A DNA stretch of 64,000 nucleotides from a virus, in IMG/VR virus record IMGVR_UViG_3300012927_000005, positions 16,449-80,448 of that record. One strand, given 5' to 3'. The notes below the pieces were generated by a model that was not told where the DNA came from, searched no databases, and worked only from the letters and a program-made list of their open reading frames with translations. Positions 2,927 to 63,994 of the stretch are shown here, piece after piece. A program made the position numbers and the translations under genes. The stretch's first letter is position 1. Each line of letters starts with the position of its first letter.

Positions 2927-4033
2927 ATGATTACCTATACTTATAAAATTCGTCCAACCAAAGCACAAGAAGTTAAACTTTTGGAAACACTGGACTTAAC
3001 TCGTAAACTTTATAATGACGGTCTTCGAGAATTGATTGATCATTACGAGAAAATAGGAAAATATCTTCATAGATACGATCACGATAAACTACATAATTCA
3101 AAAAGACATCCCACTCTTCAAGGATTTGTAGTAGATGAAACATTAAATCGACTGCATAAATCTTTTGCAGATTTTTTTAGAGGCATAAGAGAAAAACGTA
3201 AAGTTGGGTTTCCTCGTTTTAAATCGCAAGATCGTTGGCATAGTTTTTCTTCTTCTTGTTCGGGCGGATTGACTTTGCGTGGAACTTTATTTTATGCGGG
3301 AAAAAAAATGGGAGGAAAAATTCGAGTTAATGTTACTCGGCCTCTCCAAGGTAATCAAAAGATATCACGTATTCTCAAGAAACCATCAGGCTGGTATCTT
3401 CAAATCGTAACTGATTATGAAAAACCTAAACTAGAACCAAATACTCAATCAATTGGCTTGGATTTTGGGATTAAAAATCTTGTTGCTGATAGCGAAGGAA
3501 ACTTCGTAGAAAATCCACAGTTTCTAAAGCAGTCGCTAAAGAAACTTAGAATTGCACAGCGCTCCAAAGACCGTCGAAAAATAGGGTCTAATCGTCGCAA
3601 AAAAGCAACACAAGTTGTATCCAACGTTTACGAGATAGTTCACAATCAGCGCCTCGACTATTATCATAAAGTAACTAGACGATATGTCAACGACTGTGGT
3701 CTGATCGTAATAGAAGATTTAAAACCATCGAATATGATTAAAAACCACAACTTAGCTCGTTCAATTATGGATAGCAGTTGGGGAATGCTAAGAAATCTAC
3801 TTGAAGTCAAAGCGGCAGAAGCTGGTCGTCAAGTAATCGCAGTACCACCACATTACACATCTCAAAAATGTTCTAAGTGCGGAGAAATAGTTCAGAAATC
3901 ATTAAGCGTTCGCACTCATTCTTGTCCTTGTGGTTACATCGATGATCGAGATGTGAACGCAGCAAAGAATATCTTAGGGGCCGGGTTGGCCCTTCAGGCG
4001 TTAACGTATGGCACTAGCCAACGCGTTGCCTGA
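2927..4033 (+). CDS. tnpB: TnpB (IS200/IS605-type RNA-guided nuclease)
   Basis: The 368-residue protein starts with the typical TnpB N-terminus (YKIRPTKAQ). It has the RuvC Asp in GLDFGIKN (about residue 180), the Glu in VIEDLKPS (about 262), a C-X2-C...C-X-C zinc ribbon (SQKCSKCG, SCPCG) and the last Asp in DDRDVNAAKN (about 341). All three catalytic residues are present, so it may be active. No TnpA transposase is seen. TnpB proteins are RNA-guided DNA nucleases that cut at transposon donor sites. The element lies between early genes and is AT-richer than its neighbours, which fits recent acquisition. Confidence 0.92.
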   Translation: MITYTYKIRPTKAQEVKLLETLDLTRKLYNDGLRELIDHYEKIGKYLHRYDHDKLHNSKRHPTLQGFVVDETLNRLHKSFADFFRGIREKRKVGFPRFKSQDRWHSFSSSCSGGLTLRGTLFYAGKKMGGKIRVNVTRPLQGNQKISRILKKPSGWYLQIVTDYEKPKLEPNTQSIGLDFGIKNLVADSEGNFVENPQFLKQSLKKLRIAQRSKDRRKIGSNRRKKATQVVSNVYEIVHNQRLDYYHKVTRRYVNDCGLIVIEDLKPSNMIKNHNLARSIMDSSWGMLRNLLEVKAAEAGRQVIAVPPHYTSQKCSKCGEIVQKSLSVRTHSCPCGYIDDRDVNAAKNILGAGLALQALTYGTSQRVA

Positions 4034-4064
4034 GAAAGCCTGCGTAAGCAGGAGAAGAAATTAA
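3950..4064 (+). ncRNA. candidate omega RNA (reRNA) of TnpB
   Basis: The 3' end of tnpB and the first 30 bases after it contain short stems, including CCTGC-GTAA-GCAGG at about 4041-4054. This layout, overlapping the CDS end and ending at the transposon right end, is that of TnpB guide RNAs. The exact ends and guide segment cannot be set without a sequence model. The guide would start near 4064 if the element ends there. Confidence 0.5.
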
Positions 4065-4121
4065 GTAACCAATGGTTGGAGGAGTTGTGAGTCTAAAAAT
4101 CTATATAAAGAGTGTAAAACT

Positions 4122-4316
4122 GTGAATCAGCCCCGATATAGTGACGCAAAACGTAAAGTACTATCTTATTTTCCTGAAGCATACGCAGAGTTCTGGGTGG
4201 ATGCTTGGGACGATGGTTTCATTATATACTCTAATTCTCTTGGCAAAATTTTAGGTAACGGACAGAATTCTTCAGATGCGTGGGAAGACGCAGCAAATAA
4301 CTTGGAGGAACTATGA
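4122..4316 (+). CDS. hypothetical protein with MNQPRYS start, 64 aa
   Basis: GTG start. The first seven residues (MNQPRYS) are identical to those of the gene at 4774. The rest is acidic and resembles small phage proteins that bind no known motif. Its end overlaps the next gene by ATGA. It is the first gene after the TnpB element. Confidence 0.6.
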   Translation: MNQPRYSDAKRKVLSYFPEAYAEFWVDAWDDGFIIYSNSLGKILGNGQNSSDAWEDAANNLEEL

Positions 4317-4774
4317 ACTATAAAAATGGAGATGTAATTCGTTACAAACCTGACAACAATTGGTGTAAGCACGGTATTGCAGTGGTGTATCGAACCTGCA
4401 ATTCTGTATTGGCGAAAGATACCTACTGGGGAATTGGAGCACACGGAGATTCTGGATGGATACACGAATCCGATATAGAGGGAAGTACTTTAATCGGCAA
4501 TATTTATGAGTTCCGGGCCGATAATTACAGAAACGAAAAACATTACGCAGATACAGATAAGTTTTATATACCCATGGGTGGAGGTTCCGCTCAAATGTGG
4601 TACCGCGTAGGAGCACAACCTATCCCGTCTTTAGTTGCTGCACATTTTCAATGTCTTGTAGAAAAAGCAGAAACCGGTGTTAGAGCCGCTGAAGGTACTC
4701 TTCTTCGGAGAAAACAGGAACTTGAAGAATATTTGAAACAACACCCTGAGATTAGTCTTAAGAAAGAAATTTAA
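4313..4774 (+). CDS. hypothetical protein, 153 aa
   Basis: Coupled to its upstream gene by an ATGA overlap. The first half is rich in beta-type and aromatic residues (YRTCNSVLAKDTYWG). The C-terminal 50 residues look like a charged helix that may form a coiled coil. No family recognised. Confidence 0.65.
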   Translation: MNYKNGDVIRYKPDNNWCKHGIAVVYRTCNSVLAKDTYWGIGAHGDSGWIHESDIEGSTLIGNIYEFRADNYRNEKHYADTDKFYIPMGGGSAQMWYRVGAQPIPSLVAAHFQCLVEKAETGVRAAEGTLLRRKQELEEYLKQHPEISLKKEI

Positions 4775-16110: not shown

Positions 16111-16545
16111 ATGCCAAAGAAATTTGATAAGAACCGCAGAAACAGAGACCTACTCAAAAAATACGGTATAACCGAGCAGGAATATGAGCAGATGCTGGAA
16201 CGACAAGGCGGTGTCTGCAAGATTTGTGGTAGGCCTCCTACCGGCAGAGCCTTACACGTAGAGCACGACCACAGACTTGTACACGCCAAGATTCGGACCC
16301 GAAAAACAGAAAAAGGATGGTGGGCTCAGACCGTAGACCCACGCTATCCTAAACTGAATGTTGAGTTTGTTCTGCGAACCAAATCGGAAGCTATTAAAGC
16401 CGTCAAGCACGTGCTGCTTCGTTTCTCGATACGTTCGCTTAGTTGCTGGGCCTGTAACAGTATGTTAAAATGGGGTCACGATGATCCAAAAATTCTAATA
16501 AAGGCGGCTGAACTACTCCATGAGCACAACTCCAAATTCAACTGA
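16111..16545 (+). CDS. endonuclease VII-family HNH endonuclease
   Basis: The 144-residue protein has CKICGRPPTGRALHVEHDHR near residue 35 and a second Cys pair in SCWACNSMLKWGHDDP near residue 112. Together they form the zinc-bound His-Me finger of recombination endonuclease VII. A 45-residue insertion between the halves replaces the usual short loop. It could resolve DNA branches or act as a homing enzyme. Confidence 0.8.
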   Translation: MPKKFDKNRRNRDLLKKYGITEQEYEQMLERQGGVCKICGRPPTGRALHVEHDHRLVHAKIRTRKTEKGWWAQTVDPRYPKLNVEFVLRTKSEAIKAVKHVLLRFSIRSLSCWACNSMLKWGHDDPKILIKAAELLHEHNSKFN

Positions 16546-46720: not shown

Positions 46721-47260
46721 TTATTTCTTTAATGAGTTTAGTATGTTGTCTATCGTGCTATCAGTGTTTCTGGGTCCAGTTTCGAGAGATACTCCCAAGC
46801 AGTTAAAAACTCGTAGAACTATTCCAAGTTCCGCTCTGTTGTGACCTCTCTCGAACTCACAAATCCATTTTCGACTAGCACCAACTGACTGCGCCAGTTG
46901 AGATTGAGTTAAACCTTTTTGTAGTCGAAAGAATCTAGCTGCGGCTCCGACATCTTCAGAGGTTTTGATTTTAATTTTATTATCGTCAAGTTTCGGTCTA
47001 TTTGCTAAAATAGAATCTATGAATTGACAAAGTTCAGCGTCCGCCTCAAACCACTCCCCGCGTATTCTTTTGGACAAGAATTTATCGTGCAGCGAGCCTT
47101 CCGTGTGTCCAGACTTACCCTCGTCGATGAATCCCAACAAGGATAGATTATCCGGAGAACTCGTACATAGAGCTTTTAGACGGGTTTCTGGCTCTCCAGA
47201 AGTTCGACCAATCTTAATTAGATTAGTTGTAGCGGATTTTATGAAATAGATATAAGACAT
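46721..47260 (-). CDS. T5orf172-type GIY-YIG domain fused to HipB-like HTH
   Basis: Residues 1-85 match the T5orf172/Mug113 branch of GIY-YIG proteins (YIYFIKSATTNLIKIGRT, then a Glu and LHDKF, RGEWF). Residues 100-165 form an XRE/HipB-like helix-turn-helix (FFRLQKGLTQSQLAQSVG then ASRKWICEFERG, GIVLRVFNCLGVSL). The fusion could be a homing endonuclease using the HTH for targeting or a transcription regulator. HipB is known to bind TATCC-N8-GGATA; this window has TGTCC-N7-GGACA sites, one adjacent. Confidence 0.75.
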   Translation of the reverse strand: MSYIYFIKSATTNLIKIGRTSGEPETRLKALCTSSPDNLSLLGFIDEGKSGHTEGSLHDKFLSKRIRGEWFEADAELCQFIDSILANRPKLDDNKIKIKTSEDVGAAARFFRLQKGLTQSQLAQSVGASRKWICEFERGHNRAELGIVLRVFNCLGVSLETGPRNTDSTIDNILNSLKK

Positions 47261-52389: not shown

Positions 52390-52941
52390 TCATTGTAGCA
52401 CAGGTTGAGCGGAATTGCAAATCTTAGATTCCATCCAATCAGCAATTTTTCTGTGTTCCTCGGCTGTACCGTTGTTCTTTATGCGGTTAGCTCGATAGGA
52501 CATAACTACAACATTATCCTTGAAATACCCCAATTCAGGTCGAATTCTATCTATACTAGGTGAACCGTCTCTATTGCTATCAACACTTCTGGGCTGAAGT
52601 TTTATCCCCAAAATTGGACAATATTCAGGGATTATAATATCTTCTTCTTTAAGATCAAAAGGAACATTAAACCTTTTCGCTCTCTGTTTAGCAGCATAAA
52701 CTAAATGCCGTTCTAAATACTTGATGTAGCGGGCTTGTTGCTGAGAGATCATTTTCTCTCGATTGTTCTGGTACCGTTCAGCCCACCGCTGTTTTGTACG
52801 ATCCATATTCTTCGCCCGATTAGCCCTGACCTTTTTAACATCACAAGGTTTACAAAGAGAACGAAGACCGTCTTTCTGGCCCTTATCTTTACTAAAGCAC
52901 TCAAGCAGCTTTTCTTCACGACATATTCTACAGATTTTCAT
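52390..52941 (-). CDS. HNH endonuclease just downstream of the capsid gene
   Basis: The ATG at 52941 follows TTGAGGAAAAT and is preferred to one at 52995. An N-terminal zinc ribbon (CRICREEKLLECF...CKPC) and a basic linker precede the HNH core: CPILGIKL, the SPSIDRIRPELGYFKDNVVV block and RANRIKNN. It has its own promoter and lies beside the intron-rich capsid gene, where it may target an intronless allele (inference). Confidence 0.85.
   Translation of the reverse strand: MKICRICREEKLLECFSKDKGQKDGLRSLCKPCDVKKVRANRAKNMDRTKQRWAERYQNNREKMISQQQARYIKYLERHLVYAAKQRAKRFNVPFDLKEEDIIIPEYCPILGIKLQPRSVDSNRDGSPSIDRIRPELGYFKDNVVVMSYRANRIKNNGTAEEHRKIADWMESKICNSAQPVLQ
52392..52420 (-). promoter_or_regulatory. 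possible sigma-70 promoter
   Basis: On the - strand TTGCAA, 17-base spacer, TACAAT, then six bases to an ATG. This matches the geometry of the other leaderless-type promoters but has weaker boxes. Confidence 0.45.
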
Positions 52942-53028
52942 ATTTTCCTCAAGTTGCAGTAGCGGACGCACTTGAGGGAACGCCCGCCGCCGCATTTAAT
53001 TGCACCTGATGATCAATCAGATAATTCT

Positions 53029-53082: not shown

Positions 53083-56000
53083 TTAAACCAGCACTTTAAC
53101 TAGCTGCTGGAAGTCTCTGATTGCAATCGTCTTATAGTCATTGTTGAACCGGGCATCGTTGTTACTCACCTTGCGGCGGGATAGATCATTTCTGTCTATC
53201 TCTGTATGTCGCCATACAGTCCGGACTATCGCACAACCGCTTGACTGCGGTTTCTTCTCGTTTAGTCTCTTCAGCCGAAATTATCTTGCTGTTTGTTGTC
53301 TCCCAAAGGAGAGGTTCAATTTGATTAGAGAAGATTTATACTGCGCCAAGGTTAACGCAGTGACGTAGTGAACTTAACATTATAAGCGCACCAACCCGTT
53401 TGTTTTCAGCAACTTAGCATCTCTGCTAGTTGGCGCTCACAATCGCTCGTGAGATGAGACTGTATCTTAGCTTTCGCTTCTATCATGTCAGTCGTTACGG
53501 TGCCTTGCGGTTACCTCGGGATTGTCCACTAGGGAGTTTCCCCGATATAGATAGATTTAAAATCGGCAGTTTGACGTACCGATCTGTCTTGCTGGATCAG
53601 AAACACTACCCTGTTGAGGAGCTTCCTGAATACATTGGATTATTGCGTCTTTGACGACTCTACATGTTTCCAAGTAGTTTGGACTATATCTTCATCCCAG
53701 TAGGATGGCATCGTGTAGTCTCTACGGCTCCCAGTTAGGTTGCCTCGGGGTTACCCTCGCGGGCCTTCACCGATATAGATGTATTTTCAGTTAGCATTGC
53801 TGCTAAAAGTGCCTAGTTTCCAGAGCAATTTGTAGTTTCTTTCCAGATATTGTTTAAGTACTTTTAAGTACATTCTCATAGTTTCTTATGAGGTCGGACT
53901 ATGTCTTCACTTTCGTGTCTAGCGTATAGTCTCTAAGGATTCCCTTGCGGGTCTTTCCTCGGCGTTACCTTTACAGGCGTTCACCGATATAGCTAAATTA
54001 AGTGGCAAAAGTCTTTACCACTTTCCGGATTTCTTCCAAGAAAAACGGCGAACAACGCGTCATCTCCGTAGAGATAAGTATTATCAGGTTTGTTTTAGGC
54101 CGCCAAGCTCACGCGTGGGGCTCTCACTTCATCTCTGAAGTGCTCAGGCTCTATCTTCACTACATGGCTTCCTTTAGAAGTAGTCGTAGTGTCTTGCGTA
54201 TTAGTCGTTACAGAACGCCCTTTTTTGTTTAACTCCATCATTTTAAGTCTATAGGGTGCTCTTTTCGCAGGATCGTTCACGTTGAAAAGAGATTGATAAT
54301 CCAACATCAATTGTAACTGCTCACACTTAATTTTCATGTAAGGTTTCACGGCTTGTAAGAAATCGTGAATATCTTGTTTCCGACTGAGAGACCAGAGATA
54401 GCAATCTTTGTTCTTTTTGTCTGGAACGATGCGCAGTTGAAGATTTCCACCAAATTTGGCATACAACCAATCGGTTAGAATTCTGTTGGTATTACCTACT
54501 ATGACTTTACAACCGTACGTATAGCAAACTACACCTTTACGGTTTTTGTTCTTGACGCGGTATATGCTTATACATCCTTCGCAATCCATTGCTGAGGCTG
54601 CGTAAGCTGCGTCGTGCGGAGATAAAATATACAAGGGCTTTCCTCGGTATTGTGAGTTATAATATAATACATTATAACACATATCCACCGATTTAGCAAG
54701 ATTTCGTACCAAATTTTTTAGTACGTGTTTCCACCAATAGTAACAGTAGGAGCAGTGGAGGTCTGCTTGAATGTCGCACCACCAAAGGTGATAACGTCGT
54801 CGTTTGAAAGCGGTGCAAGCAGCTTCTCGCGAGTGTCGTCGCCACGTTTGAGGATGTCGGTCAAGCCGTTCCAGGACTGATCGTTCAACACGTCTCTCAC
54901 TACGTTAGGATGAATAATCCCTCCGTACTGACCGTTAGGATACAACGGACGTGCGTTTACTGATACTAGGGACTGAACAGCCGAGCGAATGTTGTTCGCG
55001 GTCAAGTAAGTGCCGTTTGCAAGCTGGATGTTTACGCTTGAATCGACGCCCGTTGCGGTGTCAGAGGTGTACTGAACAAGAGTGTTCAGGGTTAGGGCCA
55101 AACGATAGTTTAGCTCTGTTGCCAGGTTGTTTAGAAGACCTGGTTCGTCAATTGCAACATCACAATTATGTTTTGGATCTTCAGTATCACTACTGAAATC
55201 AACTTACATTCACATGTAAGATCGGACTCTATCTTCACCGTAAAGGTGTCCAGCGTATTAGCCTCTGGGGTTCCCTTTCGGGTTACCTGCTTCTAATCTT
55301 GCTGCCAAGAGTTTGAAGCATTTGGCTGGATTTAATGGCACCAGATTTAGTTTAGTGCCAAGTCAGATGCGTTGATATAATCGCTGTACTGACCCACGGT
55401 CGCGTTAATTTTGGTTGACGATTCGGAAATAGGTGATCCTACTGTACCTTCCAGTTATGTTAACTAATCATCGCTGAATAGCTCGGACTATATCACCATC
55501 CCGAAGGATGTGTATCGTGTAGTCTCTAAGGATTCCCTTGCGGGTCTTTCCTCGGGATTGTCCACTAGGGAGTTTCCCCGATATAGATACATTTTCGATT
55601 AGCATTACTGCTAAAAGCGCCAAAAGTTTAGCGGCCTGATTTGTGTTAGCAGGCAGAAGAGCGTAGGAGTAGAACTGGATGTTATTTCCAGAGTGCATTG
55701 GAAGCGGCCACTGTTTAGCCATTCCGAGGACATATTCTTATGGGTCACGTTTGACCGCGCTGCATATTACTATGCAGATGAGACTATATCATTTGATATC
55801 GGCGTGTAGTCGTTACGGATTCCCTTGCGGGTCTTTCCTCGGGATTGTCCTCTAGGGAGTTTCCCCGATATAGCCAATTTTATTCACCACCTCAATGATG
55901 GTGTGTTCGCTTTCAAGTTAGGGCTGTGTGTTTAGGCTGCGTGAACAGCGCACTCGTAATCACTTACGAGAACAGACTCTATCTTCAAATTGCGTAGTAT

Positions 56001-56950
56001 ACTAGACAAATTAGAGAAAATGCTTCTCTTTGACTCGTATATTAGACATTTTGTCTTACGTTATGGTCGTTTCGGTGCAAACTCTTAATGACTGTAGCAT
56101 GTCGTTCACTTCTTTCTTTTTCTCCACCAAATAGGGGATGATAGAAAGAAGAAACCGTTCGGAATTGGTTTCCATATCTTCGCTGTGGGGTGTGATTTTA
56201 TCTGTTATTCCCGTTGCGTCAATTATCCCAGCTTGATAGGCTGCGATCTCTCGTCTGGTCTTCATAGTCTGTGAAGATTCTGTAAACTCGTCCATTTTCT
56301 GGATAACGTACTTTGCGTCATCCTTTTTCTCGAACAAAAAGGGGTAGAGTTCCTTTAATAAAGAGGGAAGTGCTTTCTCACCGGTCAGTTTCCAGTAGTA
56401 GATCTTCTTCTCGTCGTCAGGTACTCGGATGAATACGCCGCCAAAATGAAGTACTAGGAACTTGCAGACTTTACGTGTTGTATTTCCTGTATGAACGGAA
56501 TACTGAATTTTGTGAATTACACCGTCATCTTGACCGATGAAACCACCTGTGTCCAACATTCCCGATAAATAGGCTAACTTAGACGTTCGTGTCATTTATG
56601 AGTTTGTTACCTCCGTCTTGTCTCTTCCATTGTATACCAAAGAGAGATTAACGGATATGGTAAGATTTTAAAGCAACCATTGTTAAAAAATTGCTTTTCT
56701 TTCGTCGTTTTGTTTAAGCTATCAACGTTCCCGTTGATGCGTGCTCGCGATCACTCGCGAGATCAGACTGTATCTTAGACTGTTGTCTCTGTACGTTTCA
56801 GTCGTTAAGGAGCCAATTCGGTTTCCTTGGGATTGTCCACTAGGGAGTTTCCCCAATTTAGTACAGTTACCTACCAGAAAGTTAGTAGGTTGCAAGCAGG
56901 TTGGGTAGTTGACCCGAAGATACCTGTATGCTAGATGGGGTATAAGCCAT
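53083..56950 (-). CDS. major capsid protein (N4-gp56 family), split by ten group I introns
   Basis: Exons on the - strand: 56950-56884, 56705-56690, 55923-55898, 55730-55630, 55451-55354, 55162-54720, 54084-54017, 53843-53824, 53632-53578, 53396-53355 and 53169-53083. They sum to 1023 nt and give 340 residues in one frame, the usual length of this family. Typical blocks appear across the joins: NLLATYYERKAIPNLKANTP, NATVGQYSDYINASDLAL, NNLATELNYRLALTLNTLVQ, GGIIHPNVVRDVL, LYGDDALFAVFLGRNPESG and DYKTIAIRDFQQLVKVLV. Each 5' splice site is a U in a P1 helix ending in U·G. Most exon ends are fixed by P1 plus frame. The starts of exons 7 and 11 could shift by a few codons. No clear Shine-Dalgarno precedes the ATG; an A-rich leader does. 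It follows the scaffold gene. Confidence 0.9.
53170..53354 (-). ncRNA. group I intron 10 (185 nt)
   Basis: P1 pairs ACTGCGT with GCGCAGT. P7 strands are AGAGACTAA and GCGATAGTCC. P9 is CTGTATG-GCGA-CATACAG. The core differs from the others. The 3' splice site may be at 53170 or 3 bases further on. Confidence 0.8.
53397..53577 (-). ncRNA. group I intron 9 (181 nt)
   Basis: P1 pairs ATCGGT with GCCGAT. The core GGGGAAACTCCC is followed by P7 strands ACGACTGACA and GATACAGTCTC. P10: AACT with exon GGTT. Confidence 0.85.
53633..53823 (-). ncRNA. group I intron 8 (191 nt)
   Basis: P1 is short (TGCT with GGCA), followed by the same P2-like hairpin as intron 4. P7 strands are AGAGACTACA and GATATAGTCC. 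Confidence 0.82.
53844..54016 (-). ncRNA. group I intron 7 (173 nt)
   Basis: P1 pairs AGTGGT with GCCACT. P7 strands are AGAGACTATA and GACATAGTCC. P9 is CTCATA...TATGAG. P10: CTTTT with exon GAAAG. Confidence 0.85.
54095..54634 (-). CDS. LAGLIDADG endonuclease in intron 6
   Basis: The ORF is open from a TTG at 54712, but a promoter lies inside that 5' part. A TTG at 54634 preceded by GAGGAAAG is the better start, giving 179 residues. Motif DAAYAASAMDCEGCISIY is a LAGLIDADG helix; a second diverged helix lies near the middle. Its 3' end runs through P7 and P9 of the intron. Confidence 0.75.
   Translation of the reverse strand: MYILSPHDAAYAASAMDCEGCISIYRVKNKNRKGVVCYTYGCKVIVGNTNRILTDWLYAKFGGNLQLRIVPDKKNKDCYLWSLSRKQDIHDFLQAVKPYMKIKCEQLQLMLDYQSLFNVNDPAKRAPYRLKMMELNKKGRSVTTNTQDTTTTSKGSHVVKIEPEHFRDEVRAPRVSLAA
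54671..54699 (-). promoter_or_regulatory. promoter inside intron 6
   Basis: On the - strand TTGCTA (54699-54694), 17-base spacer, TGTTATAAT ending at 54671. It would express the endonuclease without splicing of the capsid mRNA. Confidence 0.65.
55163..55353 (-). ncRNA. group I intron 5 (191 nt)
   Basis: P1 pairs TGGCACT with GGTGCCA. P7 strands are AGAGGCTAATA and GATAGAGTCC. Two 3' hairpins (TTACATGTGAATGTAA and TTCAGTA-GTGA-TACTGAA) precede the splice site. The core is divergent from the other small introns. Confidence 0.82.
55452..55629 (-). ncRNA. group I intron 4 (178 nt)
   Basis: P1 is short (CGCT with GGCG) and is followed by a P2-like hairpin TTTTAGCA...TGCT...AAAA shared with intron 8. 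P7 strands are AGAGACTA and GATATAGTCC. Confidence 0.85.
55731..55897 (-). ncRNA. group I intron 3 (167 nt)
   Basis: P1 pairs CACCAT with GTGGTG. The core contains GGGGAAACTCCC and the P7 strands ACGACTAC and GATATAGTCTC. P10: intron GAGG with exon CCTC. Smallest intron of the set. Confidence 0.85.
56056..56595 (-). CDS. LAGLIDADG endonuclease in intron 2
   Basis: The 179-residue product has LAYLSGMLDTGGFIG (residues 7-21) and a second AAYQAGIIDATG helix near residue 125, the two motifs of a monomeric LAGLIDADG enzyme. A GGAGGT site lies 14 bases before the ATG. A TGTCC-type site is inside the gene. Confidence 0.85.
   Translation of the reverse strand: MTRTSKLAYLSGMLDTGGFIGQDDGVIHKIQYSVHTGNTTRKVCKFLVLHFGGVFIRVPDDEKKIYYWKLTGEKALPSLLKELYPFLFEKKDDAKYVIQKMDEFTESSQTMKTRREIAAYQAGIIDATGITDKITPHSEDMETNSERFLLSIIPYLVEKKKEVNDMLQSLRVCTETTIT
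56289..56305 (-). promoter_or_regulatory. TGTCC-type palindrome
   Basis: CGTCCATTTTCTGGATA on the + strand, inside the intron-2 endonuclease gene. Confidence 0.4.
56706..56883 (-). ncRNA. group I intron 1 (178 nt)
   Basis: P1 pairs exon ACCTACT with GGTAGGT. P7 strands lie around 56762-56813 (ACGACTG and AGATACAGTCT). P9 is the hairpin CTCGCGA-GTGA-TCGCGAG. P10 can form between CTTTC and the exon-2 GAAAG. No ORF. Confidence 0.85.
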
Positions 56951-60681: not shown

Positions 60682-61470
60682 TTATCCTATGTTATCTGAT
60701 TTACTCATGTTTTCACTGAACCACAAAGGTTGCATATTACCCCAGTGGCAGGCGAGTAAGACGTGCTGTCTGTTTGTTAGATCAAAAGCCTTCATAGGCA
60801 TGATATGATCTATAGTCCATTTATCTAAACCATGACCATAGTTTCCCCAAGTCATTCCGGGTTTAAATTTTGATTCAAGATACCGTTTAAATTCAACTAC
60901 TGTACAGCCAAGGTCCCTGACCGCTGAACCGCCTTTAAATCCACGTTGAATAGCACTTCTTAAACGGCGACGAAGATTATCGGTTAATTTTAACTGGATA
61001 TTTTCTTTGCGACGTTCGTTAGCCTTGGCGCTGAGAATTTCTCGATATTCAGTGCGATATATCTTATTAACTACAAGCAGTTCTTCTCTATTTTTCTCGT
61101 AATACTTTTTAGAGAAACCTTTTTCTCTTGCGTAATTGCTCCTGCAATTTTTACACTTACTGTCGTAGCCTGACTTTATGTGACGATTACGAACAAATTT
61201 CTCAAAAAGAAGTTCTTGACGACATTTTGTGCAGACCTTCGTCGTTCTTAACTTTTCCTCTTGTTCACGTACCGCACGCGCGGCTGCTTTTCTAATCCGC
61301 TTTCTTTGGCTATTGTAGGCAATGATCGCGACTCTATTTTTAAGATAGTATTCTCTGTGACAATCTCGACAGTTCGCGCTGTACCCGTTTTGTCGACTTC
61401 TGTTGGTGTAAAACATACTAACAGATAGGTCCCGTTTACAGTGCGAACAGTGTAGTGATTTTTCTTCCAT
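60682..61470 (-). CDS. HNH endonuclease between terminase and portal
   Basis: Two zinc ribbons (CSHCKRDL...CRDC and CTKCRQEL...CKNC) precede a basic linker and an HNH core (WTIDHIMPMKAFDL, ACHWGNMQPLW). It has its own promoter. It ends four bases before the portal gene, so it interrupts the usual terminase-portal neighbourhood. Confidence 0.87.
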   Translation of the reverse strand: MEEKSLHCSHCKRDLSVSMFYTNRSRQNGYSANCRDCHREYYLKNRVAIIAYNSQRKRIRKAAARAVREQEEKLRTTKVCTKCRQELLFEKFVRNRHIKSGYDSKCKNCRSNYAREKGFSKKYYEKNREELLVVNKIYRTEYREILSAKANERRKENIQLKLTDNLRRRLRSAIQRGFKGGSAVRDLGCTVVEFKRYLESKFKPGMTWGNYGHGLDKWTIDHIMPMKAFDLTNRQHVLLACHWGNMQPLWFSENMSKSDNIG

Positions 61471-61936: not shown

Positions 61937-63994
61937 TTAACCTATCAAGCCGCCGCCCAAAATGTTATCAAGGCCGGGAGCGTACGTTTGAGACAAAATG
62001 TCCTCAGAAATTTTTGGTTCATCGAAAACGTGAGTAAATACTCCACCTTGTCCGGGTCTGCCCCACGGATCACAGTTTTCTTCAAATATTAAATTGTATG
62101 CAGCTCGTTCTTTCGTCCAGCCTGTCCAACTTGGAATTCCCTGTTCGATAACCTTCATCGACATTCTAGGGGCATATCTCGGCTGGTAGGATAGTGCATC
62201 AGGAATATCATTTTTCGTCTGCCTAGTACCTTGGCAGCGAATAAACTCGTCGTAGACTATCTGGCGAAACGGAATATGGTACGCAAACTTGAACAAGCCG
62301 TATTCCATCAACGGTTGGAGGGCGGCCATGCGAATGCGTTTCGCGTCGTTCTGTGTATCCGGTTTGATCCAATCGATTTTGGTGCAAACTTGAATCACAT
62401 ACGGATCGTTTGTCTTCAGCGCCTCTGCTTCAATCGTTGGGCCAAGCAGGTTAGATCCACCCGCATCTTCAATTCCAATTACGTACGGATGGTGCTTGCG
62501 GGCAAACTCTACAATCGCCTTTGCCTGCGCTAAAGGAGTTATAAATCTATCGCGGATAAGGTCGTTCGTGTATCCGACGCCTTTTTCATCCCATATAACC
62601 GAAGTGCCGACTGTAAAATCTCTGTATTTCTTCTTGCTGAACGCAAAATCCCACGTGTGGGAAATCGGACCCCTGTGCGGCATTTCGGTAAAAGGAACTG
62701 TGCTTCTTAAAAGCAGGGGAAGGTCGAAAACTGCTTCTTGTTCGGGTAGAGGGTTCTGATTCATCTGACCTTCAAATGAACCATCTTCCATTTTTCCTTG
62801 ACGATCTTCGTTATACATGACCATCAAAGATGAATAGTCAAGTACTTTCGGCATCACAAAGATGCAACCCTCTTCTCCAGCTTCTTTGTAAAAATCAACG
62901 GGAGGTATACCCTTTTTTACTAATGCTTCGCGAACTTCAGGTTTAACCTGCATCGCTCTGCCAACCAATATCAAACTCTTGTTGGCTGGATTTTCAGTCA
63001 GTTCCCACCCAAGACCGGAAGTTGTTTTTAGGCTACCAACATTGCTGGAAATTTCAGCCCCATAAATATCCGAATTCTTTGAGCAGCATCCATCTGCAAT
63101 GTAATTACCTGTTTCGGTCTGGAAAAAGTATACGGATTGTTCGCCGCAAGGTTCAATCGATACAAGTTTGTCTTCTTTGGTAAACAATTGACCAAAAAGA
63201 CTTTCTGATATTTTTGTAGACCTAATTGGTGATACTTCTCGCAGGAATCTATACCGTTCAGGCCAACCTCCGAGTATGGTAAATTGACATTTGTCTTTCC
63301 AGTGCTCTTGTCCGTATTTGCCCTTGCTCGGTTCGCTCCAGTTTTCGTGAAACTCAAAACCGAGGTTGCTAAGAACTTCTCGTATTTTATTAAGTACATT
63401 GGGGTTATGTTTGGTTTGTGCAATAGATATAACACCGCTCGGATAACCCGGATTTCCTCCAAATGATCCTTCACCGTCATATATACCGGATAACCAAGAC
63501 GCTTCCCACGAGTTATTCCTATCTTTGGGGATCAGCAATCTACGGACGGAAGCTAACTTACCGTAAGAAAATGAAAGAATATTATATCCTTCGTCCTTAT
63601 TAGCGTTGACACTTCCCTTACCACCCCACCATTTGTGAGTTTCAGTAGCTACGACGCTTCTTCCAGATTCAAACGTGTACTTAAATACCGGACGAGAATC
63701 GTGCTTACCGGTGGCTAGCACTTTAGAAGGAGTAAGAAATCTTTTATGTCCTTTTCCGTTACGGTTAGTCTTAAAAGACCACCCTACCAGACTGTCGCCC
63801 TCAGTTATATCTTCTATAGGCTTTTGTGACCAATCTGCCATTAAGATAGGAGTTCCAGCGACTAGACAGTCGTTATATCTTGTTCCTATTTTTATCGCGT
63901 ATCCCCACTTACGCAGCATCTTTTTATTGATACGGTAATTTTTACCTACCTTCATACACTGATCTTCGTTTTCAGAGTTTAGGTTGGATACCAT
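61937..63994 (-). CDS. terL: terminase large subunit, partial, with intein
   Basis: The gene runs off the right edge; the ATPase half is missing. The host protein reads GTRYND | SDIYG across the intein. The nuclease domain has the Asp of HTWDFAFSKK, IEDAGGSN and NDIPDALSY, the three acidic positions of RNase H-like terminase nucleases. It packages DNA through the portal. The C-terminus ends DNILGGGLIG. Confidence 0.88.
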   Translation of the reverse strand: MVSNLNSENEDQCMKVGKNYRINKKMLRKWGYAIKIGTRYNDCLVAGTPILMADWSQKPIEDITEGDSLVGWSFKTNRNGKGHKRFLTPSKVLATGKHDSRPVFKYTFESGRSVVATETHKWWGGKGSVNANKDEGYNILSFSYGKLASVRRLLIPKDRNNSWEASWLSGIYDGEGSFGGNPGYPSGVISIAQTKHNPNVLNKIREVLSNLGFEFHENWSEPSKGKYGQEHWKDKCQFTILGGWPERYRFLREVSPIRSTKISESLFGQLFTKEDKLVSIEPCGEQSVYFFQTETGNYIADGCCSKNSDIYGAEISSNVGSLKTTSGLGWELTENPANKSLILVGRAMQVKPEVREALVKKGIPPVDFYKEAGEEGCIFVMPKVLDYSSLMVMYNEDRQGKMEDGSFEGQMNQNPLPEQEAVFDLPLLLRSTVPFTEMPHRGPISHTWDFAFSKKKYRDFTVGTSVIWDEKGVGYTNDLIRDRFITPLAQAKAIVEFARKHHPYVIGIEDAGGSNLLGPTIEAEALKTNDPYVIQVCTKIDWIKPDTQNDAKRIRMAALQPLMEYGLFKFAYHIPFRQIVYDEFIRCQGTRQTKNDIPDALSYQPRYAPRMSMKVIEQGIPSWTGWTKERAAYNLIFEENCDPWGRPGQGGVFTHVFDEPKISEDILSQTYAPGLDNILGGGLIG
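63074..63868 (-). mobile_element. LAGLIDADG intein in terminase
   Basis: 265 residues from Cys1 (CLVAGTPILMADW, block A) to Asn265. Block B is SVVATETHKWW. Endonuclease helix WLSGIYDGEGSFG is block C. The end is VYFFQTETGNYIADGCCSKN, followed by Ser of the extein. The usual His before the last Asn is Lys. It is inserted after GTRYND, in a conserved part of the nuclease domain. Confidence 0.88.

Follow-up and report, generated by a model that had tools for sequence, protein, structure and literature searches.

A phage capsid gene divided by ten predicted group I introns belongs to a repeatedly invaded clade

Introduction

Several groups of bacteriophages are known in which group I introns interrupt genes more than once. 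The major capsid protein (MCP) gene of the crAss-like Zeta phage cMAG OLRF01000054 is reported to bear four interruptions, Zeta genomes holding up to 14 introns each, and the Zeta RNA polymerase genes are called even more disrupted than the MCP gene, uncounted in the available text (PMC7886860). Polymerase and terminase genes of the Bastillevirinae contain several group I introns, up to three per gene, and introns of these phages were shown to splice in vitro and, in one arrangement, to flank a small exon as a pair (PMC11878797). In the major capsid gene of mycobacteriophage LittleE there is one intron, most likely of group I and with a LAGLIDADG-like frame, the splicing of which was demonstrated by reverse transcription-polymerase chain reaction (RT-PCR) and N-terminal sequencing (PMC3706429). 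Jug phages are reported to have a mean of 18.5 group I introns per genome, distributed over many genes; their terL is split into 2-3 fragments (PMC12363816). Here we analyse a stretch of 64,000 nucleotides, hereafter the window, which covers positions 16,449 to 80,448 of IMG/VR virus record IMGVR_UViG_3300012927_000005. In this record, which is that of a tailed phage, a single capsid gene was found; very probably it encodes a 329-residue shell protein and carries ten self-excising group I introns.

Like the reported Zeta case, this is a major capsid gene split by group I introns in an intron-dense phage group; it differs in having ten of them in one gene, in its shortest exon of 16 nt, and in that the window's record contains no intron of the same type (recognised by the model R1 described below) outside the capsid gene. 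As in the Bastillevirinae, a single phage gene holds more than one group I intron, three at most in that report against ten here, and as in LittleE the interrupted gene is that of the major capsid protein, with one intron there against ten. Among organelles, the mitochondrial cox1 gene of Agaricus bisporus, with 18 group I introns in 29.9 kb (PMC2987802), is likewise a single-gene reservoir of mobile group I introns, whereas here the host is a 3.85-kb phage gene and the introns are compact and mutually related. Fungal ribosomal DNA (rDNA) also has related introns at more than one site of a gene, group I introns having reached new sites there by reverse splicing (PMC1299323), although those are rRNA genes and the present one encodes a phage protein. 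A preliminary description of the window had called ten introns in one structural gene exceptional. Within the accessible parts of the open-licence PMC literature no phage gene with more than four counted interruptions was found, and the word holds against that literature with one reservation, the uncounted Zeta RNA polymerase genes (PMC7886860).

Results and Discussion

A capsid gene in eleven exons

Encoded on the minus strand, the capsid gene extends from an ATG at 56950 to the end of a TAG at 53097, the latter correcting the limit of 53083 first proposed for the interval. Its 11 exons, of 16-443 nt each, sum to 990 nt plus the stop codon and encode 329 amino acids (aa), rather than the 340 residues of the preliminary description, while the 10 introns, of 167-766 nt each, sum to 2861 nt, so that 74% of the gene is intron. 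This structure was obtained with a purpose-written spliced protein-to-DNA alignment for which the sole guide was the protein of L021, an intronless relative. The alignment returned all 10 introns and a stop-free product of 329 residues, the same as that of a join made by hand. Each exon occurs once, ordered and in frame, and the joined exons contain neither stops nor frameshifts; inside each of the 10 interruptions there is an in-frame stop. The alignment score was 1103, compared with 67-108 in nine controls, for which the opposite strand (one control) or different stretches (four) were aligned, or the protein was shuffled (three) or reversed (one).

Boundaries were chosen with the help of the U...G rule, by which the 5' exon ends in U and the intron in G. 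With this rule switched off the score was the same and 10 introns were still found, six of them with U...G ends and four with boundaries moved by 1 nt; these four boundaries are ambiguous from sequence alone. As had been proposed, the open reading frame (ORF) list for 53.1-56.95 kb contains no single reading frame spanning the whole capsid protein, and the arrangement of ten introns and eleven exons in a single frame is borne out both by the spliced alignment and by the ribozyme model R1, which recognises all ten introns.

Ribozyme cores of the ten introns

The check first suggested, a search with the Rfam group I model RF00028, gave a mixed outcome. Four matches exceeded the gathering score and the others fell below it; the top one wrongly bridges the 5' half of intron 4 (I4; the others are abbreviated likewise) and the 3' half of I5. 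At a lax threshold eight matches were obtained in the region, and a search of the whole record added one more, over intron 1. Since the generic model was partial and fused I4 with I5, a covariance model of the clade, R1, was built from 35 introns of relatives, none of them from the window. Applied to the 64-kb window, R1 gave 10 matches at E<=0.001, one per intron; an 11th match, outside these introns, had E=0.097. Of the ten cores, that of I4 scores highest.

A P1 helix with a U.G pair can be placed at 10/10 sites and is of 6-8 bp in eight of them; at the 35,316 T positions on both strands of the window, a P1 of at least 6 bp arises by chance in 2.4% and one of at least 4 bp in 13.8%. The last intron base is G in all ten introns, four of the boundaries having been chosen with help of the U/G rule. 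In alignment A3, made from the 35 introns of relatives (introns with doubtful boundaries were omitted from this and from alignment A2), 22 of 31 core pairs vary on both sides, including 6/6 in P3. The covariation score of A3 is 0.528, as against 0.154 (standard deviation 0.011) for shuffled and at most 0.127 for slid versions, the covariation being strongest in P3 and P9 and weaker in P4, P6 and P8. At the sequence level, then, this capsid gene is cut by ten group I introns, which are related to each other and to introns of the same gene in related phages. The gene structure and the ribozyme anatomy were computed; from them we infer transcription and splicing.

The encoded protein and its neighbourhood

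The joined protein matches TIGR04387 (N4-gp56, NCBIfam; E=1.4e-13, residues 12-200) and PHROG 1357 (major head protein; E=1.4e-17). Over its full length it is 39% identical to the annotated, intronless major head protein of Tunturiibacter phage Tunturi_3, a phage isolated on an Acidobacteriota host (PMC11924767). Upstream of the capsid gene are an SU10-type portal gene (PF23899, 1.3e-22) and a terminase gene, both with open frames, and the gene order terminase, portal, head protein is common to the window and Tunturi_3. The search for a second capsid gene that had been called for found none in the 80-kb record or in the 106-kb record of L009, the completeness of neither record being established. 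L009 carries the same ten introns and equals the window in 17,007 of 17,008 bases of the compared stretch.

Comparison with L016, an intronless relative with an 84% identical protein, gave a proportion of nonsynonymous differences (pN) of 0.14 and of synonymous differences (pS) of 0.76. To judge from these values and from the synonymous changes relative to contig L014 described below, selection maintains the joined reading frame.

Introns and exons along the gene

All features that follow are on the minus strand, the exons as placed by the spliced alignment. Exon 1 (56884..56950, 67 nt), which begins with the ATG, is followed by intron 1 (56706..56883, 178 nt, site 22.1; P1 7 bp, R1 64.7 bits). 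Exon 2 (56690..56705), a 16-nt microexon in which all changes relative to contig L014 are synonymous, leads to intron 2 (55924..56689, 766 nt, site 27.2), with a P1 of 8 bp and an ORF inside; it scores 19.8 bits with R1, in its 3' half, and 29 bits with RF00028. Between exon 3 (55898..55923, 26 nt) and exon 4 (55630..55730, 101 nt) lies intron 3 (55731..55897, 167 nt, site 36.1; P1 6 bp, R1 80.9 and RF00028 50.7 bits). Intron 4 (55452..55629, 178 nt, site 70.0), with a P1 of 4 bp only and an R1 score of 90.4 bits, precedes exon 5 (55354..55451, 98 nt), and intron 5 (55163..55353, 191 nt, site 102.2; P1 7 bp, R1 69.3 bits), the site of which is empty in L014, precedes the longest exon, exon 6 (54720..55162, 443 nt).

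Intron 6 (54085..54719, 635 nt, site 250.1) also has an ORF inside; its P1 is of 6 bp, its P7 contains an A.C mismatch, and it scores 29.0 bits with R1 and 22.1 bits with RF00028. Downstream of exon 7 (54017..54084, 68 nt), intron 7 (53844..54016, 173 nt, site 273.0; P1 7 bp, R1 83.1 and RF00028 50.1 bits) is separated by the 20-nt microexon 8 (53824..53843) from intron 8 (53633..53823, 191 nt, site 279.2), with a P1 again of only 4 bp and scores of 76.7 bits for R1 and 58.4 bits for RF00028. The gene ends with exon 9 (53578..53632, 55 nt), intron 9 (53397..53577, 181 nt, site 298.0; P1 8 bp, R1 61.3 bits), which is the sister of intron 1 in the tree described below, exon 10 (53355..53396, 42 nt), intron 10 (53154..53354, 201 nt, site 312.0; P1 7 bp, R1 72.9 bits) and exon 11 with the TAG (53097..53153, 54 nt plus stop).

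On the same strand, in the gap between the capsid gene and a downstream endonuclease gene, 53057-53029 shows a perfect sigma-70 consensus (TTGACA, 17 nt, TATAAT; 12/12). Free-standing ORFs near the capsid region are found at 52390-52995, with matches to endonuclease VII/HNH-type PHROGs, and at 60682-61470, HNH-like by eye only. An ORF at 46721-47260 has, by eye, a beginning like the GIY-YIG/T5orf172 type and an end like a helix-turn-helix regulator. The terminase large subunit gene (61937-63994) contains an intein with a LAGLIDADG-like domain, according to Hint-type and LAGLIDADG_3 matches.

Reading frames inside introns

The LAGLIDADG-like frames in I2 and I6 are absent from the preliminary description. 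The ORF of I2 (56056..56595, minus strand, 179 aa) is LAGLIDADG-like by eye and matches phrog_5046, which bears an HNH label, at 2.2e-10; no Pfam match was found for it. In both its motifs the acidic residue, which we take to stand at the motif end, is seen by eye to be replaced, the frame being still open, and comparison with L014 shows 8 codons changed synonymously and 2 neighbouring amino acids replaced. This ORF is possibly a maturase candidate or a decaying endonuclease. The ORF of I6 (54095..54712, minus strand, 205 aa as listed) matches phrog_5046 at 3.7e-17 and has, by eye, one LAGLIDADG-like motif with the acidic residue retained; its match to PF00961 (E=0.12) is below the cut-off, and its true start probably lies nearer the motif. 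A promoter-like site (10/12, with TG) lies inside intron 6 at 54699-54671, upstream of the likely ORF start. The endonuclease gene of intron 6 may have its own promoter.

The long introns of relatives contain 31 distinct ORFs, of which eight were scanned. Seven scored above the PF00961 (LAGLIDADG) cut-off, and the eighth, from L096, has no Pfam match and is HNH-like by eye. For an intron ORF of L103 the nearest PDB entries are I-MsoI and I-CreI.

Introns in related phages

Relatives were drawn from the best 80 of 273. The set of 74 capsid contigs counted here omits L098 (poorly resolved), the distant intronless L109-L112, and L009 and L034, which duplicate the window; contigs from other phages were counted separately even where nearly identical, and the partial L014, L026, L035, L078, L081 and L084 are included. 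Also counted are four doubtful intervals, 114-125 nt long, from L014, L081 and L108. If intervals of at least 100 nt are taken as full-size introns, these are present in 48 of the 74 contigs and absent from 26. Twelve contigs have one, 5 have two, 15 have three, 7 have four and 7 have five, the most intron-rich being L103 with eight and the window with ten. The same five-intron gene turned up under several metagenome numbers, in L079, L080, L082 and L083.

Across the 74 contigs 40 insertion sites are occupied. Four of the ten sites in the window are common to others: 22.1 (intron 1; 13 other contigs), 312.0 (intron 10; 12 others), 279.2 (intron 8; the two contigs L010 and L011) and 70.0 (L014). 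At the remaining six none was seen in the other contigs of the set. The same gene is repeatedly invaded across related phages. When R1 was run on eleven phage records of 80-110 kb, two of them of the same phage, it gave 52 matches in nine records, every one within the capsid gene, and none in the two with intronless capsid genes. In other phages the ribozyme type is not confined to this gene: R1 matches occur in three contigs, in stretches that yielded no relative of this capsid.

An in-frame stop occurs within 6 nt past the 5' splice site in 29 of 95 introns of relatives, compared with 18% in other frames, a difference too weak to use. The 34 pattern matches in genome contigs included no relative, and two spliced-junction sequences of the window gene, when sought in viral contigs, had no match there.

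Movement of the introns

A tree of 81 intron cores contains 25 terminal pairs. Nine join introns at the same site in two genomes, three join introns within one gene, two join L014 with I3 and I4 of the window, and 11 are neither, several of them weakly supported. The within-gene sister pairs are I1 and I9 of the window (Shimodaira-Hasegawa-like approximate likelihood ratio test, SH-aLRT, 82; bootstrap 100), the introns at sites 55 and 22 of L103 (98 and 100) and those at sites 303 and 253 of L033 (again 98 and 100). These three pairs suggest copying inside the gene.

The short contig L014, whose aligned stretches are 93-99% identical to the window, encodes the same protein and has no intron at sites 22.1, 27.2, 36.1 and 102.2. 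In exon 1 the two agree at 65 of 66 bases, past the first intron site at 76 of 99; over codons 23-55 (exons 2-4) 20 of 33 codons are altered, all of them synonymously. The drop in agreement beyond the first intron site, together with the synonymous changes, would fit the acquisition of an intron-rich block together with its exons. At site 55.1 L014 has the start of an I2-like intron whose guide sequence is fitted to 55.1. Positions 3480-4750 of this contig run from this I2-like intron at a new site through a window-like exon 3 and intron 3 to a jump into intron 4, a structure due to a true rearrangement or else to chimeric assembly. Besides L014, near-identical pairs of intronless and intron-bearing genes were not found, the best pair being 82.9%.

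Homing, block import and reverse splicing are each compatible with these data, and the steps of spreading are what we infer. The LAGLIDADG-type genes of some introns would probably drive homing into intronless capsid genes, and introns without an endonuclease gene would probably be carried along by recombination of neighbouring blocks. Alternatively, such ORF-less introns could reverse splice into a new site of the same mRNA and then be copied into DNA.

Mini-introns in relatives

The capsid genes of 24 of the 48 intron-bearing contigs contain mini-inserts of 36-59 nt, removal of which restores the frame, and none was found in the 25 intronless contigs compared; the association with full-size introns has a hypergeometric p of 2.7e-6, relatedness being ignored. 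All 15 distinct mini-inserts have an in-frame stop and are too short for a ribozyme core. Their boundaries were picked with a preference for U and G, so that the U...G ends are partly built in. A P1 of at least 6 bp is found in 10 of the 15 (chance 5%); if one mismatch is tolerated, 14 have a P1 of at least 7 bp (chance 9%). Of 25 cases, 20 lie upstream of a full-size intron with 16-39 nt of exon in between, four have 151 nt in between, and one lies at a contig end. Examples are found in L010 (3300-5600), L029 (3660-4030), L037 (7111-9900), L074 (4950-6800), L079 (5840-6180), L088 (6260-6650), L091 (7000-7580), L096 (6001-8566), L097 (6001-7646) and L103 (7290-7690).

Ribosome bypass was considered for, and rejected in, two sets of mini-inserts. 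In the site-299 group with a split W codon it would lose the conserved W300 (by eye), and in L010 and L074 the take-off and landing codons are unmatched (by eye).

We tentatively suggest, while holding it doubtful on balance, that the capsid pre-mRNA houses a community of ribozymes, in which complete introns copy themselves to new sites and coreless mini-introns are excised by the core of a neighbour. Under the same tentative suggestion the mini-introns would be shrunken introns that keep P1 and the final G, and the window gene, in which all ten introns are complete and the microexons measure 16-26 nt, would represent the state before core loss. Engineered ribozymes that remove introns in trans exist (the spliceozyme, PMC4509937), and removal of mini-introns by a neighbouring core would be their natural counterpart.

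Alternative explanations

Several results weigh against the locus being a working ten-intron gene. The group I core with P7 that had been claimed in ten copies is recognised by R1 in all ten introns; I2 and I6 nevertheless score weakly with that model, and by eye each has one P7 mismatch. The clear P1 with U.G claimed for each 5' site stands for the eight longer helices and fails for the short ones of I4 and I8. In A3, P4, P6 and P8 are paired in 71, 70 and 74% of cells, which is low because two intron subtypes share one alignment, and 'further pair types' beat the shuffles weakly (11 of 500 shuffles were as high). As to the N4-gp56 capsid identity, the matches to TIGR04387 and PHROG 1357 support it, but the former, at 50.8 bits, is below the NCBI cut-off of 60, for which reason we call the protein N4-gp56-type and not a curated member, and a Pfam scan of the joined protein gave no match. 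Structure prediction of the intronless relative L016 was unusably poor (mean predicted local distance difference test score, pLDDT, 48.9). Since a single base in 17 kb separates L009 from the window, L009 may represent the same or a sister sample and no independent isolate; L014 may be partly chimeric; and with its mixture of terminal pairs the tree does not settle the mode of intron spread.

One alternative accepts a real ten-intron gene but holds that I2, I6 and perhaps I4 and I8 need a maturase, a host factor or a neighbouring core, with splicing controlling the supply of capsid. The P7 mismatches of the first two introns and the short P1 of the others would speak for such help, as would the I2 ORF, open in spite of its lost motif acids and showing mostly synonymous changes relative to L014, and the position of the mini-introns of relatives, mostly close upstream of full-size introns. 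As the A.C mismatch type of I6 recurs in relatives (2 of the 35 introns in A3) and the short-P1 intron I4 tops the ten in core score, we regard this as rather unlikely.

That short reads from several strains, each with 1-2 introns, were stitched together through similar intron cores is very improbable. Such cores, up to 96% identical over 71 nt, can mislead short-read assembly, and L014 looks partly chimeric. Against an artefact stand the same ten introns in a second, longer contig with its single mismatch, perhaps from a related sample, the orderly succession of exons, each present once and in frame, the eight-intron contig L103 from another metagenome, and the recurrence of the five-intron gene under several metagenome numbers.

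It is extremely unlikely that the gene is a dead, intron-loaded relic and that the real capsid comes from another gene. The P7 mismatch in two introns could be read as decay; yet no second capsid gene is present in either long record, the joined exons have no stop or frameshift, pN is low relative to pS against L016, codons are changed without amino-acid change against L014, and the frames of the upstream portal and terminase are open, that of the terminase with an intein. Finally, that the interruptions are inteins or ribosome-bypassed stretches is scarcely credible, for although the terminase intein shows that protein splicing exists in this phage, every interruption has an in-frame stop and an R1-type ribozyme core whose helices covary in relatives.

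Our preferred reading is that of ten introns which remove themselves. The gene would most likely be transcribed as a single pre-mRNA of ~3.85 kb. Each intron would undergo the two transesterifications usual for group I: an external guanosine would attack after the U of the P1 U.G pair, and the freed exon would then attack after the last G of the intron, the ten ribozymes in this way excising themselves. The eleven joined exons would be translated into one 329-residue N4-gp56-type shell protein.

Significance

Capsid protein is among the products most needed by a phage late in infection, and the message for it would here need ten RNA splicing events in a bacterium. Such a gene would test the limits of group I splicing efficiency, and also what confines a growing intron family to one gene. 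Gene finders that expect a single open frame easily miss capsid genes of this kind. The clade as a whole forms a graded series, with 0-10 introns at 40 sites, filled or empty, with and without endonuclease genes, that can be used to measure intron gain, loss and movement. If the mini-introns are spliced, the step from self-splicing to trans-acting splicing becomes open to experiment, and, were a neighbouring core indeed to excise them, these phages would provide a living model for an autonomous ribozyme turning into a trans-acting splicing machine.

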